Part shown: piece after piece, positions 9,172 to 14,996 of the stretch
Layout of the letters: each line of letters begins with the position of its first letter
How positions within the stretch are numbered: position 1 is the first letter of the stretch
Assembly: GCA_021844425.1 (NCBI GenBank)
Contig: JAKBTL010000121.1
Location: forward strand, 1-41,093
DNA length: 41,093 nt
Reading direction: 5' to 3'
Origin: Actinomycetes bacterium
GTDB lineage: Bacteria > Actinomycetota > Acidimicrobiia > Acidimicrobiales > RAAP-2
Made by a program: the position numbers and the translations under genes
The notes under the pieces: generated by a model
What the model saw: the letters and a program-made list of their open reading frames with translations, nothing else
What the model was told of the DNA's origin: nothing
Databases searched by the model: none

Positions 9172-10116
9172 CTACGGGTTGCAGTAGGGGCATTCTCCGG
9201 GGTCGGCGCGAACCTCGGCGGAGACGACGGGCCGCGTCTGCCGGTGCTCGCAGGCGACGCAGCCGTCGATCTCTGTCCGTGGTCGGGCTACTTCCGTCCC
9301 ACACCAGGCGCAGGGCACGCCGAGGATGACGTCTACGCGCCCCCAGCCCGGCGCGCCGCAGGCAGGGCAGCGGGTGGCGACCCGGGTGGCAAGGCGTTCG
9401 GCGGCGCGGGCGATGACGGCGCGGCGCGAGGGGCAGGCGTGAGCTCGCAGATCGGTCTCGATACGGGCCAGGCCGTCGGTGGCAGCAGCGGCGCACTCGG
9501 CGACGGCAGCCGCCAGATGATCGAGGGCTGAGATCCCCTTGTGGATCGGGTGCACCGCTCCGCAGTTCGGCCGGACGATCAGCTGGTGCTCGGGGAAATG
9601 TGCCTGGGAGAGGAACGGGCCGAGGTCCTCATCGGGGCCCGCGCTCGTCGACCTGGCGACGATGTCCCAGCTCGAGTGGCTCTCCCACACCACGATCCCG
9701 TGTCGATCGTCCACCAGGACGACGATCTCGCGGTCGGAGTGGACCAACGGCATGGCGGGGTCGGGACCGATGCTTCCCTCGGAGGCCACGCCCAGGGCGC
9801 GGCCGGCTGCGTTCATCCCGAGGCGTGCCTTGGCAATGGCAGTGTCGAGCGGCGGCCCCTGGCGGGGGACGTCGCCGGTGAAGGTGCCGAGAACGTCCGT
9901 GTCGACGGCGACCGCTTCGACCAGCAACCCGACGGCCCGCTCCAAGGGCGGAGCGATGAGAGGGAGCTTTTCGTGCTTCGTGGCGAGCACTGCCGTGTCG
10001 CCGGCGTAGGGGTGGTCCGCCTGCTCCCACCTGCGCGAGGAGTGGGCCACTGCCCTCGGGCTCGTGGTTCGCACGCCGGGCTCCGAGGGGTCACGCGTTC
10101 GCCGTCGTCTGAGCAT
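9172..10116 (-). CDS. DUF6671 family protein with C-terminal CxxC zinc motifs
   Basis: 314 aa. The N-terminal two thirds contain YAGDTAVLATKHEKLPLIAPPL, then DTDVLGTFTGDVPRQGP, KARLGM and ASEGSIGPDP, the features I associate with the DUF6671 family. The C-terminus has four CxxC pairs: CPAC, CAWC, CVAC and CPYC (309-312), likely two zinc ribbons. Family function is unknown; the zinc ribbons suggest nucleic-acid or protein binding. Four acidic/His positions in the core (for example SDREIVVLVDD) could form an active site, but this is speculation. The gene ends 175 bp before the pirin operon. A TAGCGT box lies 6 nt before the ATG, so the transcript may be leaderless. Confidence 0.75.
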   Translation of the reverse strand: MLRRRRTRDPSEPGVRTTSPRAVAHSSRRWEQADHPYAGDTAVLATKHEKLPLIAPPLERAVGLLVEAVAVDTDVLGTFTGDVPRQGPPLDTAIAKARLGMNAAGRALGVASEGSIGPDPAMPLVHSDREIVVLVDDRHGIVVWESHSSWDIVARSTSAGPDEDLGPFLSQAHFPEHQLIVRPNCGAVHPIHKGISALDHLAAAVAECAAAATDGLARIETDLRAHACPSRRAVIARAAERLATRVATRCPACGAPGWGRVDVILGVPCAWCGTEVARPRTEIDGCVACEHRQTRPVVSAEVRADPGECPYCNP

Positions 10117-10128: not shown

Positions 10129-10227
10129 GCTCTACGAGAGAAGAGTGCTTCGTGTGTTGCTCTTCGCAAGATGTCTGGCATCTCGGTGGAGAGCGTCTCG
10201 ACAGGGCGCCCCGGGCGTCGGCTCAGC

Positions 10228-10572
10228 TCACGAGGCGGTCGCCCTGCGGCGCCGTGGAGCAGCGAGCCCGGCGACGACTTGGAGGAACTCGCCGATGCTG
10301 TGGGGCTGCTCGACGGGGTGGCGCAACGGCCGGTCGGGGTTGATCTCGTAGTGGTTTCGCCGGCCGACCCGGGTGCGCGTCACGTAGCCCTCGCGTACGA
10401 GGTCGGCGATGATCGCCTGGGCGGCGCGTTCGGTGATCCCGACCCGGGCTGCGATGTCGCGGCCACGGACGCCGGGGTCCGTGGCGATACAGACCAGCAC
10501 GTGACCGTGGTTCGTGAGGAACGTCCAGGTCGGCTTCGTCGTGCCGCCTGGCTCTTCCTTCGACCGCGCCAT
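10228..10572 (-). CDS. Small winged helix-turn-helix regulator (MarR/ArsR-like)
   Basis: 114 aa. The central region is a winged helix: LVCIATDPGVRGRDIAARVG (helices 1-2), ITERAAQAIIADLVREGYVT (recognition helix) and RTRVGRRNHYEINPDR (wing). No effector domain or Cys metal site is visible, so the signal it senses is unknown. It is transcribed divergently from dabB, with 198 bp between their starts. That gap contains a 25-bp palindrome over the likely dabB -10, making this protein the leading candidate to control the DAB genes or itself. The ATG at 10572 is preceded by TACAAT 8 nt upstream, which suggests leaderless expression. Confidence 0.85.
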   Translation of the reverse strand: MARSKEEPGGTTKPTWTFLTNHGHVLVCIATDPGVRGRDIAARVGITERAAQAIIADLVREGYVTRTRVGRRNHYEINPDRPLRHPVEQPHSIGEFLQVVAGLAAPRRRRATAS

Positions 10573-10580
10573 GGAGTCGA

Positions 10581-10586
10581 ATTGTA
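10581..10586 (-). promoter_or_regulatory. Probable -10 element (TACAAT) of the wHTH gene
   Basis: TACAAT on the minus strand matches TATAAT at five of six positions and lies 8 nt before the ATG at 10572. The implied start point is within 1-2 nt of the ATG. Confidence 0.5.
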
Positions 10587-10665
10587 GTTCGCTTCGTGAA
10601 ACAAAGTGCGGAAGAAGGTGCCAGCGCTCCAGACCGGCGACTTGTCGCCGGGAGAAGGAAAGGTC

Positions 10666-10694
10666 TACGATTCACGATATGTGGATCGTATATA
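10666..10694 (+). promoter_or_regulatory. 25-bp palindromic operator candidate with -10 box upstream of dabB
   Basis: The dyad at 10666-10690 reads TACGAT-T-CAC, a 5-bp centre GATAT, then GTG-G-ATCGTA; nine of ten positions per arm are complementary and the tenth is a T/G pair. Its right end overlaps TATATA (10689-10694), a good -10 for dabB. Binding here should block or modulate dabB-dabA transcription. Its AT content stands out from the surrounding GC-rich DNA. Confidence 0.6.
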
Positions 10695-10695
10695 G

Positions 10696-10725
10696 GGCCA
10701 CGGCCACGGCCACGGCCAGGGCCAG
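10696..10725. repeat. Hexamer tandem repeat (GGCCAC/GGCCAG x5) in the dabB leader
   Basis: Three GGCCAC and two GGCCAG units run head to tail directly after the TATATA box. The stretch is noncoding, in the presumed 5' leader of dabB. Copy-number change would alter leader length without touching the protein. Confidence 0.6.
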
Positions 10726-10770
10726 GGTGCGTGTGGCTGGCAAGCTGGCGGCGCTCGGCGAAGAGGCGCG

Positions 10771-12369
10771 GTGACCTCCTTGCTCGGCGAGATGTGCTTG
10801 GTCGGTGCGGTCGGCGCACCGCTGGCCGGCGCCGTGGCGGCAGCGGGCGGGAGGGCCCGGGGCCTCCGGGCTGCAGCCGGCCTCGGGTGGATCTCGGCGC
10901 TCCTGGCTGTCGTCGCCGCAGGGGTGGTGGCGTTGCACGGCCCGTTCGTGGCAGCGGCAGACGGCAGGGGCGGGCAGGTCGTGCTCGGCCTGTGGGCGGA
11001 CCAGCTGACCGTCACCTTGGTGGTCCTGGTCTGCATCGTCGGGGCCCTCGTCCAGAGCTTCTCGCTTCGCTACCTCGAAGGCGACCGCACGACGCCGAGG
11101 TTCTTCGCCGCAGCCAATGTGGTGGTGGCGGCGATGGCGATCGTGTGCGCGTCGGCGACTGCGGCAGTGCTGGTCGCCGCCTGGGTTGCCGCCGGGGCGG
11201 CATTCGTGGCGGCGCTCGGGTGCCGCCCGGACCTCCCCGGGGTGCGGTCGGCGACGCGCCGCACGTTCCGGATGCTCGTGGCCGGTGACCTGGCGGCGGT
11301 CGCTGCCCTGGTCCTCGTGTGGCTGCGAGCCGGCAACGTCGATCTCGCGGCTCCTGGCGCGCTGCGCTCGGCAGTGGCGCATCTTGGCGGCCTGGCGACG
11401 CCTGTCGCGCTCCTCGTCGCTGTGGCCGTCCTGACCCGCTCTGCGCAGGGCCCGCTCGGAAGGTGGCTTCCTGGCACGGTGTCGGCGCCCACCCCGACTT
11501 CCGCGCTCTTGCACGCTGGCGTGGTCAACGGCGGCGGCGTGCTGCTCGTACGGCTCGGAGTGCTCGCCGGCGGGTCGATGCTGGCCATGGCGGGCGTGTT
11601 CACGGTGGCGGCGGTCACCGCCGCCGTCGCGACCCAGGCCATGAATCGCAGGGCGGACGTGAAGGGCGCCTTGGTGCTCTCGACCATGGGCCAGATGGGG
11701 TTCATGGTGGCCGAGTGCACGGTAGGTGCCTACCTCGCGGCGGTCGTGCACCTGATCGGCCACGCCTTGTACAAGGCGGGGCTGTTCTTCGGGTCGGGTG
11801 CACAGGTGCCCCGCCCTGGCGAGGCGCCCGTCGCACCCGCCGCGGTGATGCCGAACGTGGCCCGGGCGGCGGTGTCGGCAGCAGCAGCAGCGGCGACCGT
11901 GGCCGCGATGGCGGCGGTCCCCCAGGTGCTCGATCACCGCGGAGCGTTCGTGCTGCTCGTCTTCGCCGCGGGCACGGCGGCGTCGGCGTCGTGGTCGTGG
12001 TGGGGGCGTGCTCCCGTCTCGGCCCGCGGGGCGCTCCTGTGGGCGACCGCGCTGCTGGGCGCCGGCGCGCTCTACGGGTTGGTGCTCGACGGGCTCGGGC
12101 GGTGGATCGGTCCGTCCCTGCCCGCCGTCGGCACCGGCGTGCTCAGCCCGTGGTGGCTGGCGGCAGTGGCCGGCACCGGGGTGGTGGCGGCCGCGCTCAC
12201 CAGGCTGCCCTCTGTGCGCCTGCGCCTCGTGGCCGTGCTGGTCGATGCCGCCGCCCCGCCGGCGGCGGGCTTCGCGCGGGCGATGCGGGGCGCAGGACGC
12301 GCCGCTCGGGCCGAGGCGCCCGGGTCAGCCCCGGAGCTCGTGGGCGTGTGGGAGGAGAGCGCAGCGTGA
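10771..12369 (+). CDS. dabB: DabB, proton-conducting membrane subunit of the DAB inorganic-carbon transporter
   Basis: 532 aa, hydrophobic throughout, with about 13-14 potential TM helices. It belongs to the NuoL/MrpA antiporter superfamily (PF00361): LRYLEGDRTTPRFFAAANVV, then TPTSALLHAGVVNGGGVLLVRLG with the conserved LLHAG-type motif, KGALVLSTMGQMGFMVAEC, and HLIGHALYKAGLFF with the Lys and His residues of the proton path. In DAB systems (established in Halothiobacillus neapolitanus) DabB pairs with DabA and is thought to couple cation flux to CO2 hydration, driving bicarbonate accumulation. Its stop overlaps the dabA start (GTGA). GTG at 10771 has GAAGAGG a few nt upstream. No other Nuo or Mrp genes are nearby, which argues against complex I or Mrp. 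Confidence 0.9.
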   Translation: MTSLLGEMCLVGAVGAPLAGAVAAAGGRARGLRAAAGLGWISALLAVVAAGVVALHGPFVAAADGRGGQVVLGLWADQLTVTLVVLVCIVGALVQSFSLRYLEGDRTTPRFFAAANVVVAAMAIVCASATAAVLVAAWVAAGAAFVAALGCRPDLPGVRSATRRTFRMLVAGDLAAVAALVLVWLRAGNVDLAAPGALRSAVAHLGGLATPVALLVAVAVLTRSAQGPLGRWLPGTVSAPTPTSALLHAGVVNGGGVLLVRLGVLAGGSMLAMAGVFTVAAVTAAVATQAMNRRADVKGALVLSTMGQMGFMVAECTVGAYLAAVVHLIGHALYKAGLFFGSGAQVPRPGEAPVAPAAVMPNVARAAVSAAAAAATVAAMAAVPQVLDHRGAFVLLVFAAGTAASASWSWWGRAPVSARGALLWATALLGAGALYGLVLDGLGRWIGPSLPAVGTGVLSPWWLAAVAGTGVVAAALTRLPSVRLRLVAVLVDAAAPPAAGFARAMRGAGRAARAEAPGSAPELVGVWEESAA

Positions 12370-14996
12370 GCAGCGACGATGGAGCGGCGGCCCGGACGCG
12401 CCTCCTCGCCCAGGTCGACGAGGCGTCGCGCGTCGTCGCCCCGCTCTGGCCGCTGTCGACCTTCGTCGCGGTGAACCCGCTGTGGGACCTGCGCCAGATG
12501 CCCTTTCACGAGGCGGTGGCCTACGCGGGCGAGGTGCTCGGCATCGGCGGGTACCCGCCTCCGGCGCTGTTCGCTCGGGCCTATGCCGAGGGGCGGGTCA
12601 CTGCAGACGATCTGCGGGCTGTGCTCGACGGCGACCATGTGCCGGCGCGCTCCGTGCGCATGGGTGCCGAGTGCGGGGACGGGAATGGGAGACGCCTGCA
12701 GGTGTCGCGCGCGTCAACCGCCGCCGAGCGCCATGACCGTGTGCTCGGGACGAAGATCGCAGAGGCGGTCGACCGGGAAGTTGCGAAGTGGTGCGCGGCG
12801 TACGTCGCAGGCGTGGTGCCTGACGGGGCCGCCCGTGGCTTCTACGCCGCGTGGCGACAGGTCGTCGTGTACGACCCGGCGGCACGCTCCGTCGCCGGGC
12901 GCGCAGGGCGCAGGCGACTGGCCGAGCTGGGTGCGGACGCCGAAGGGGCAGTTCTCGGGTGCCTGGACCTCCTCGGGGTCGCAGAGGAGGGTCGGCCCCT
13001 CGAGCTCGCGCGCCACCTCGCGCGCATGCCCGGCTGGGCCGGACATGCCAAGTGGCGATCCCGGTGGGCAGCCCCGGAGCATCCCGGCCCGGCCCTTCAC
13101 CTGGTCGACTACCTCGCGGTCCGGCTCTGCTACGAAGCGGTGTTCCTCGCGTCCTTCGGGCATGGGCCGGGGCTGCGCCGCCAGAGGCGGCGAACGGTGC
13201 GCGGCGGATCGCCGATGCCCGTGCGTGCATCCAAGGACGAGGAGCCGGCGGGAAGAGGCGCGCGGCGAGCCGGCGTGGGCGCTGCCGGCGTGGGCGCTGC
13301 CGGCGTGGGCGCTGCCGGCGTGGGCGCTGTCGGCGTGGGCGCTGTCGGCGTACCCGAGGACGTGGCGGCACGGCTGTCACGCCTCGGAGCGACTGAGGCT
13401 GCGAGGGTATGGCTCGACGCCTACGAGCACCACTACCGCGACTGGCTGCTCAACGCGTTGGACCGCGCACCTGCGCCTCGAAGGATGCCGCCTGCGGCGC
13501 AGGCGGTCTTCTGCATCGACGCCCGCTCCGAACGGCTTCGTCGTCACCTCGAGGCGGTCGGTCCCTACGAGACGCTCGGGTTCGCCGGGTTCTTCGCGCT
13601 GCCGATCCGCTACCGCGCGTGGGGATCCGCCGACGCGGTGGACCTCTGCCCGGCGCTCGTACGACCGAGCGCGCAGATCGCCGAACGGCCAACGGACGGA
13701 TCGCACGTGACCGCCGTCCGTGCGCTTGCCGGCAGGCAGGTGCTGGCCGGCGCGCGCAGCGCGTTCGGCAGCGCCAGGAAGGGAGCCGTCTCCCAGTTCG
13801 TCCTCGCAGAGGCTGGCGGCTTCGTCGCCGGGCCGATCGCAGTCGCCAAGACGCTCGCGCCGGGCCGCTACCGGGCGGTGCGAAGCTGGGCGCAGCGGGT
13901 CGCCGCCCCACCTACCTCCACGCTCGTCGACGCGGACCCGGCGGCCGGTGCCATGAGCGACGAGGAGCAGGCCCAGTTCGCCCACGACGCCCTCACCACC
14001 ATGGGTCTGACCCGCTCGTTCGCTTCGGTGGTGCTCTTGTGCGGGCACGGCAGCACCACGGAGAACAACCCCTATGCCTCCGCGCTCGACTGCGGCGCCT
14101 GCGGCGGGAACAGGGGCGGGCCGAGTGCCCGTGCCGCCGCCGCGATCTTGAACCGCCCGACCACCCGTCGCCTCCTCGCCGAGCGAGGCATCGTCGTACC
14201 CGACGGGACCGTCTTCGTCGCGGGCGAGCACGACACCGCCACCGACACGGTCGCCGTCCTCGACGTCCACCTCGTCCCCCCGAGCCACCGCGACGCCGTT
14301 GGCGCGCTGCAGTCGGCCCTCGAGCGCGCCGGCGCCGCAGCGGCCGCGGAGCGCCGCCCGAGCTTGCCCGGCAGCGAGAGCCGTCGCCGCAGGGGACAGC
14401 CCGCCGAACGCGCCGCGGACTGGGCGCAAGTCCGTCCCGAGTGGGGCCTTGCCCGCAACGCCGCGTTCGTCGTCGCTCCCCGCGAGCTCACCGCGGGGCT
14501 CGACCTGGCGGGCCGGTGCTTCCTGCACTCCTACGATCCTGGAGCCGACGCCGACGGCGCGGCGCTCGAGACGATCCTCACCGCCCCGATGGTCGTGGCG
14601 CACTGGATCAGCGCGCAGTACTACTTCTCGACCGTCGACCCCGCCGTCCTCTCCGCCGGCGACAAGACGGCCCAGAACGTCGTCGCCGGGATCGGCGTGG
14701 TCCAAGGCGCCGGCGGGGACCTGCGAGTGGGACTGCCGCTCCAGTCCCTCTACGACGCGGAGCGCGTGTACCACGAGCCGATGCGCTTGCTCGTCGTGGT
14801 CCACGCACCGCTTGCGCTGGTCGACGCGGTCGTCGCCCGCAACCGGGTGCTGCGCGAGCTCTTCGACGGGCAGTGGGTCCAACTGGCTCAGCGCGAGGAC
14901 TGGAGGGACTGCTGGAAGATCCGCCGTTCCGACGGCACCTGGGCACGATGGAACCCCGCCGAGGCGCGCGCCATGGCGCCAGCTGCCCGTGGGTGA
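12366..14996 (+). CDS. dabA: DabA, carbonic-anhydrase-like subunit of the DAB inorganic-carbon transporter (UPF0753/DUF2309)
   Basis: 876 aa starting at GTG overlapping the dabB stop. It opens with the family N-terminus VVAPLWPLSTFVAVNPLWDL. The beta-carbonic-anhydrase-like zinc site is complete: C383 and D385 in VFCIDARSERLRRHLE, H561 in LLCGHGSTTENNP, and C576 in SALDCGACGGN. The H-to-C spacing of 15 equals that of the characterised Halothiobacillus protein. The C-terminal family motifs HWISAQYYFSTVDP and GLPLQSLYD are present. DabA is cytoplasmic and membrane-bound through DabB, and is proposed to hydrate CO2 unidirectionally. Residues about 303-327, before the catalytic region, are a GVGAA/GVGAV repeat encoded by five 15-bp units, an insertion not expected in the family. 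All known zinc ligands are intact, so the protein should be functional. Confidence 0.95.
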   Translation: MSSDDGAAARTRLLAQVDEASRVVAPLWPLSTFVAVNPLWDLRQMPFHEAVAYAGEVLGIGGYPPPALFARAYAEGRVTADDLRAVLDGDHVPARSVRMGAECGDGNGRRLQVSRASTAAERHDRVLGTKIAEAVDREVAKWCAAYVAGVVPDGAARGFYAAWRQVVVYDPAARSVAGRAGRRRLAELGADAEGAVLGCLDLLGVAEEGRPLELARHLARMPGWAGHAKWRSRWAAPEHPGPALHLVDYLAVRLCYEAVFLASFGHGPGLRRQRRRTVRGGSPMPVRASKDEEPAGRGARRAGVGAAGVGAAGVGAAGVGAVGVGAVGVPEDVAARLSRLGATEAARVWLDAYEHHYRDWLLNALDRAPAPRRMPPAAQAVFCIDARSERLRRHLEAVGPYETLGFAGFFALPIRYRAWGSADAVDLCPALVRPSAQIAERPTDGSHVTAVRALAGRQVLAGARSAFGSARKGAVSQFVLAEAGGFVAGPIAVAKTLAPGRYRAVRSWAQRVAAPPTSTLVDADPAAGAMSDEEQAQFAHDALTTMGLTRSFASVVLLCGHGSTTENNPYASALDCGACGGNRGGPSARAAAAILNRPTTRRLLAERGIVVPDGTVFVAGEHDTATDTVAVLDVHLVPPSHRDAVGALQSALERAGAAAAAERRPSLPGSESRRRRGQPAERAADWAQVRPEWGLARNAAFVVAPRELTAGLDLAGRCFLHSYDPGADADGAALETILTAPMVVAHWISAQYYFSTVDPAVLSAGDKTAQNVVAGIGVVQGAGGDLRVGLPLQSLYDAERVYHEPMRLLVVVHAPLALVDAVVARNRVLRELFDGQWVQLAQREDWRDCWKIRRSDGTWARWNPAEARAMAPAARG
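13271..13345. repeat. Five 15-bp tandem repeats inside dabA
   Basis: Units of CGGCGTGGGCGCTGC (three identical, two differing by a final T) run in frame and encode repeated Gly-Val-Gly-Ala-Ala/Val. The length is a multiple of three, so unit gain or loss keeps the frame. Confidence 0.9.

Follow-up and report, generated by a model that had tools for sequence, protein, structure and literature searches.

The question raised by this locus is how dabB and dabA, the genes of a DAB-type inorganic-carbon pump, are controlled, and whether the small winged helix-turn-helix (wHTH) protein encoded divergently from them takes part in that control. The locus lies on contig JAKBTL010000121.1 of an Actinomycetes bacterium of the class Acidimicrobiia (assembly GCA_021844425.1), whose whole stretch of 41,093 nucleotides is called the window below. 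An earlier account based on the letters of the window (the sequence-only reading) had connected the wHTH protein with dabB through a 25-bp palindrome. The earlier interpretation is partly supported here, and the regulatory link itself well supported by comparison: a conserved predicted operator at 10669-10694 lies on the dabB promoter and tracks the presence of the wHTH gene, while the palindrome as it had been drawn was not sustained. Sequence comparison among relatives showed the gene pairing and the operator, the position of the operator on the predicted promoter and its co-occurrence with the wHTH gene. We consider it likely that the one-domain wHTH protein acts as a dimer to repress dabBA through 10669-10694, as part of a response to low CO2/bicarbonate.

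Predicted operator in the dabB promoter

A 26-bp palindromic matrix was trained on 23 non-redundant dabB-wHTH intergenic regions of relatives, with the window excluded; the training pool consisted of 25 divergent intergenic regions shorter than 600 bp, two of which (L162 and L189) were dropped as redundant, and the longer gap of L161 was not used. The matrix consensus, AATTCACGAAATATATTTCGTGAATT, is a 26-bp inverted repeat with the core CACGA-N8-TCGTG. Its top match in the 41-kb window (28.0 bits; the runner-up, at 10133, had 10.1 bits) was GATTCACGATATGTGGATCGTATATA at 10669-10694, with the core CACGA (10673-10677)-N8-TCGTA (10686-10690) and the axis at about 10681.5; the wHTH proteins of some training loci are 87-91% identical to that of the window, so that this test is not fully independent by descent. 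The same site was the sole match to the IUPAC pattern with at most one mismatch in the 3.0-Mb assembly; with at most two mismatches the pattern was found at 28 places, and the reversed control at 6. The assembly matches C5, C71 and C120 resemble SOS (LexA) boxes and were kept out of the target count. The fetched loci (1.71 Mb, some of them overlapping) had 122 positions of at least 16 bits, against none in one Markov-2 shuffle and none in the reversed sequence; as a background, 86 positions of at least 10 bits were found in 1.43 Mb outside the wHTH upstream regions. Pairwise identity across the aligned dabB promoters was 0.28-0.29 in the flanks (near chance), 0.58 in the operator and 0.75 in the operator core.

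When 24 dabB promoters were aligned on the operator, a TANNNT sequence abutted the left half-site in 11 of them (TATAAT in L158, L160 and L162), at the column of the predicted dabB -10 of the window (TACGAT, 10666..10671, + strand). A TTG was present in 16 of the 24 in the zone matching the predicted -35 of the window (TTGTCG, 10642..10647, + strand); the spacer so defined is 17-19 bp long in 15 promoters and 15 bp long in L150. The -10 position is variable among relatives (TAGGAT, TATAAT, TATAAA). In the window, the operator overlaps the edge of the predicted dabB -10, and the predicted transcription start falls inside the operator, as would be expected for a repressor. An invariant G, 7 bp ahead of the operator in the 24 aligned promoters, may belong to a further half-site. 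Tandem operators were seen exactly 14 bp apart in L057 (7467/7481), L132 (3823/3837) and L218 (2484/2498/2512), and this spacing suggests cooperative binding.

Co-occurrence of the operator and the wHTH gene

The genomes compared were a class sample (247 genomes of the same class) and a phylum sample (396 genomes). In the class sample, DabA was found in 15 genomes and a wHTH relative in 66, and by coordinates both were within about 3 kb of each other in 9 of the 15; the phylum sample contained 22 DabA genomes, 9 with a linked wHTH gene, two of which (G282 and G343) are outside the class. Gene order varied, the wHTH gene being divergent (window, G059, G134), upstream on the same strand (G063, G106, G208, G047, G161 C20) or downstream (G190, G161 C88). 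Of 80 class wHTH places, 70 were fetched besides the window, and 9 with E values of 3.5e-8 or worse were dropped. DAB was within 4 kb in 29 of 80 named wHTH loci, 26 of these divergent; being the 80 best among 591 confirmed, these named loci are biased toward copies like that of the window, and they include one locus twice (L193 and L070). Gene labels were assigned by tblastn with a limited query set, and a locus without a partner is one with none of those families. The comparative check proposed earlier thus came out in favor of the link: the wHTH-dabB pairing and a palindromic site are kept in relatives, the site being that at 10669-10694 and not the dyad first drawn. A tree of the wHTH proteins (90 columns, poorly resolved) contained at least 20 changes of DAB linkage and is read only as repeated partner change. 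In L145 and L155, close relatives of the window wHTH gene are near an isocitrate dehydrogenase (IDH) gene in place of DAB.

Among held-out DAB-wHTH loci, a site of at least 16 bits was found upstream of dab in 12 of 14, whatever the gene order (L051, L052, L053, L054, L056, L057, L058, L059, L161, L169, L220 and the window); L162 and L189, near-duplicates of training rows, also had such a site. In the DabA genomes of both samples, a site of this strength preceded dab in 13 of the 16 with the wHTH gene and in none of the 9 testable genomes without it (Fisher p=1.1e-4); when G047, whose dabB is truncated, was omitted, the counts were 12/15 and 0/9 (p=3.4e-4). The best matrix score anywhere in the 9 wHTH-less DAB loci was 10.6. 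Ten DabA genomes were without the wHTH gene, 9 of which had the region upstream of dabB (the contig of the other, G422, starts inside dabB); G231, with a DabA fragment of 62 positions, was left out, and G161, represented by the better of its loci, entered the count once. Despite weak partial matches (E 9.5e-4 and 2.3e-5, respectively), G308 and G409 were scored as wHTH-less, and G138 and G225 were so scored by a single-protein query. In G214, G531 and G543 the wHTH gene is elsewhere in the genome and yet the dab site is strong (27.7, 29.4 and 27.2 bits, respectively); the link between site and wHTH gene is therefore not mere adjacency. In L059 (G047:C22, 1313-1853), a DabB-like N-terminal frame, recognized by eye with no BLAST hit, runs into a DabA C-terminal fragment, by a deletion or an assembly join.

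Other putative targets

Target counts rest on 158 loci picked for holding the wHTH gene. Held-out sites were at most 330 bp upstream of genes labelled as dabB (11 loci), SbtA (7), Mrp (6), IDH (4), TerC (4), DUF6671 (4), Usp (4), PurK (3), P-type ATPase (1) and STAS (1), and also preceded 32 wHTH copies next to varied targets; no start of a labelled gene was present within 330 bp of 16 of the 84 held-out sites, and all 114 sites were outside labelled genes. In G531, operators were found between a carbonic anhydrase gene and dabB and between carbonic anhydrase and the divergent, distant wHTH gene (15.7 bits). By their own annotation, two Arthrobacter plasmids carry SbtA, a PII-like gene and DUF6671 near the wHTH gene, as does Cryobacterium, and a Deinococcus plasmid record has the wHTH gene with IDH; in L145, IDH is preceded by a site of 20.3 bits. 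On a Pseudonocardia plasmid the wHTH gene is beside carbonic anhydrase, with no strong site between them (8.1 bits). SbtA adjoins a PII-like (SbtB-like) gene in L127, L129, L196, L202, L204 and L207; the plasmids of L127 and L129 were typed as conjugative. According to PMC3261824 and PMC10880623, PurK consumes bicarbonate, and cells can do without it at high CO2; it therefore fits a low-CO2 response.

Proposed control of dabBA and alternatives

We infer that a wHTH dimer binds the inverted repeat CACGA-N8-TCGTG at 10669-10694. Since both the dabB -10 and the predicted start are overlapped by this site, transcription of dabBA would be prevented while the repressor is bound; further probable targets are the repressor's own promoter and DUF6671. 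At low CO2/bicarbonate the repressor would be released, and the bicarbonate that DAB then makes by hydrating CO2 would serve biosynthetic and anaplerotic carboxylations rather than RuBisCO. The signal is proposed because the other putative targets supply or use bicarbonate or CO2 (SbtA with the PII-like protein, carbonic anhydrase, PurK and IDH). On a wider scale, and with slightly less than even confidence, the one-domain wHTH protein and CACGA-N8-TCGTG may constitute, as the equivalent of CbbR/CcmR outside autotrophs, a widespread CO2/bicarbonate sensor-repressor in largely non-Calvin bacteria, with DAB, SbtA-PII, carbonic anhydrase, PurK, IDH, Na+/H+ antiporters and DUF6671 forming one low-inorganic-carbon regulon.

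Several observations weigh against these proposals. Eight of the 24 aligned promoters lacked the -10 as well as the -35 element where these would be expected. No site of at least 16 bits was found upstream of dab in the held-out loci L055 (the second DAB locus of G161) and L197, and the wHTH gene is present with no strong dabB site in G014 (none), G083 (10.1 bits) and G343 (11.6 bits). No labelled gene family was found within 4 kb of the wHTH gene in 29 of 70 class loci and 16 of the best 80 of 591 named loci. The window genome has no site at its PurEK, IDH-like or carbonic anhydrase loci, so that dab, the wHTH gene and perhaps DUF6671 are its only predicted targets. The Mrp, NHX, TerC and P-type ATPase targets, moreover, fit pH or cation control equally well.

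This last point leads to the proposal that the same regulator and operator respond to alkaline pH or to a cation (Na+, Mn2+, Ca2+), the inorganic-carbon genes being part of a pH/ion response. The sites upstream of Mrp (L079, L083, L089, L094, L098, L100), NHX/Usp (L075, L078), TerC (L131, L194, L199) and P-type ATPase (L074) agree with it, as do the conserved wHTH histidines (H24, H85, H22), which could bind metal; however, DAB, SbtA, carbonic anhydrase and PurK share bicarbonate more directly than any ion, and we know of no pH role of PurK, so we regard such a signal as rather unlikely. Activation of dabBA by the wHTH protein from the same site, instead of repression, would suit the closeness of the site to the promoter, and wHTH proteins can be activators; but the site takes in the predicted start and the edge of the -10, a position at which bound protein normally blocks the polymerase, which makes activation unlikely.

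The operator might also belong to another transcription factor with the wHTH gene merely its neighbor, and almost every locus used for counting sites had been chosen because it contains the wHTH gene, so that the counts do not prove the link. Against this, the dab sites track the presence of the wHTH gene (13/16 against 0/9) even where it is elsewhere in the genome, and sites precede the 32 held-out wHTH copies beside varied targets; we hold such a factor to be decidedly improbable. As for the 25-bp dyad of the sequence-only reading (TACGATTCACGATATGTGGATCGTA, 10666-10690, axis 10678), it is present, with the predicted dabB -10 as its left arm. This arm, however, is variable among relatives, which keep the N8-spaced dyad on another axis; 9 of 12 positions are paired, a result equalled in 82 of 1000 first-order shuffles of the wHTH-dabB gap. 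Since it is not significant alone, the dyad was ruled out as the operator, hardly any probability being left to it, and it is explained as the dabB -10 (TACGAT) fused with one operator half.

The comparison supplies a candidate regulator and a defined 26-bp site, and the pair recurs beside other genes of bicarbonate supply in several bacterial phyla; it may represent an undescribed mode of inorganic-carbon control in non-autotrophs. DAB and SbtA, two systems of bicarbonate supply that are unrelated to each other, are thereby linked to a single control element. Carboxylations in heterotrophs require CO2/bicarbonate, but the sensing of this supply is, to our knowledge, poorly known. Named organisms in which the proposal could be tested are Conexibacter sp. 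S30A1, Cryobacterium, Promicromonospora and Tessaracoccus. No description of this regulator or site was found in a literature search of open-licence papers.

The DAB genes of the window

As had been described, dabB (10771..12369, + strand; membrane subunit, PF00361/PF00662) and dabA (12366..14996, + strand; PF10070) are both complete open reading frames with a 4-base GTGA overlap at 12366-12369, and the gap between the divergent wHTH gene and dabB is 198 bp. The window DabA matched PF10070 with 815 bits in a profile search and was alignable to the solved DabA2 structure 9rd0. C383, D385, H561 and C576, which had all been taken as zinc ligands, are at these numbers and the three Cys/His residues match ligands of DabA2, but D385 corresponds to no ligand of the DabA2 structure; according to PMC13144422, the zinc ligands of DabA2 are C351, H524 and C539, and D353 is part of an Asp-Arg dyad. 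By alignment to 9rd0, D385-R387 is the counterpart of this dyad and E482 that of the finger glutamate E444 of DabA2; judged from the alignment, D385 (with R387) is catalytic. Two marks of DAB membership were found, namely a DabA with the zinc ligands, the Asp-Arg dyad and the finger glutamate, and an adjoining antiporter-like DabB. A 15-bp in-frame repeat (5.5 copies, GVGAA-type) is present at 13269-13351 of dabA, ahead of the carbonic anhydrase-like domains, and a GGCCAC hexamer repeat (4.8 copies) at 10696-10724 in the predicted dabB leader.

A search of the window genome (G000, assembly 91.8% complete) yielded no RuBisCO, and DAB is therefore not considered part of a Calvin-cycle carbon-concentrating mechanism there; the earlier framing as a variant of such control was abandoned. 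The beta-carbonic anhydrase match of this genome was weak only. RuBisCO was found in 5 of the 15 class DabA genomes (in G138 by partial matches only), with a match in 1 of 9 wHTH-linked and 4 of 5 unlinked genomes, numbers too few for a claim. By analogy, DAB most likely supplies bicarbonate to ordinary carboxylases here, as is reported for MpsAB in non-autotrophs. The window DAB is like the pumps of Halothiobacillus (DAB2) and Staphylococcus (MpsAB) in the DabA family, zinc site, Asp-Arg dyad, finger glutamate and dabB-dabA pairing, and would share with MpsAB its use in non-autotrophs; unlike the systems in the accessible parts of those accounts, it is tied to a wHTH gene, a promoter operator and DUF6671. 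The SbtA-SbtB module has a transporter unrelated to DAB, but shares with it the wHTH regulator family, the operator and DUF6671.

The wHTH protein

The proposed repressor (10228..10572, - strand) is, as had been described, a one-domain winged-helix protein of 114 aa in which no sensor domain was found by Pfam search and AlphaFold model. It matched MarR_2 marginally (28.1 bits; cut-off 27) and Pfam MarR below the cut-off (23.4 bits; cut-off 24.6). An ArsR/SmtB assignment was not supported by NCBIfam HTH_metalloreg (17.9 bits; cut-off 55), nor a LysR assignment, as no LysR HTH or substrate-domain Pfam match was obtained up to E 0.1. The AlphaFold monomer model (mean predicted local distance difference test score (pLDDT) 87) has, besides three core helices and a wing, a single helix at the C-terminus; dimerisation helices at both the N- and the C-terminus are a defining feature of the MarR family. 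The nearest folds, all weak (best E 9.7e-4), were PcaV 4fht, HcaR 4rgu and ArsR 6j05. With these small MarR/ArsR repressors it shares the winged-helix fold and a palindromic site overlapping the -10, but differs in its length of 114 aa, in fewer helices outside the core (by the monomer model), in its ArsR score far under the cut-off and in its inorganic-carbon gene targets. H24 and H85 are invariant in the family alignment, and H22 nearly so.

CbbR, CmpR and CcmR/NdhR are LysR-type inorganic-carbon regulators. The wHTH protein would resemble them in adjusting carbon acquisition, but has a single domain with no effector domain found, an N8-spaced CACGA dyad, and a host without detected RuBisCO. 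For the statement that LysR control is usual for DAB, no supporting paper was found in the open-licence literature, and 'LysR' is absent from the text of the review PMC10880623.

A predicted wHTH -10 (TACAAT, 10581..10586, - strand) is 8 nt ahead of the ATG, which would make the transcript near-leaderless. Beside it is a lone half-site, TTCACGAA (10593..10600, - strand; 5.3 bits by the 26-bp matrix, weak), and 10 of 25 divergent relatives have an exact TTCACGA at most 110 bp from the first wHTH codon that is conserved; the half-site suggests autoregulation of the wHTH gene.

DUF6671

Beside the wHTH gene, a DUF6671 protein is encoded at 9172..10116 (- strand), with a predicted ITPase/YjjX/Maf-like fold and a Cys-rich, zinc-ribbon-like C-terminus in which three CxxC pairs are invariant and the fourth nearly so. 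DUF6671 was found in 9 of the 247 class genomes, in 8 of them within 4 kb of the wHTH gene, and by gene neighborhood it is a third conserved partner, absent from the earlier account and linked to the DAB and SbtA modules alike. This uncharacterised family, named in no paper found in the open-licence literature, would thereby gain its first functional context. The best Foldseek matches of its model (mean pLDDT 92.8) were ITPase, YjjX and nucleoside triphosphate (NTP) pyrophosphatase structures (probability 1.00, all with E of at least 1.9e-3); that DUF6671 is itself an NTP pyrophosphatase is a guess from the model. The second-best site of the window (10133..10158, 10.1 bits), weak alone, is operator-like and just upstream of the DUF6671 start, and the DUF6671 genes of relatives have stronger upstream sites than that of the window.

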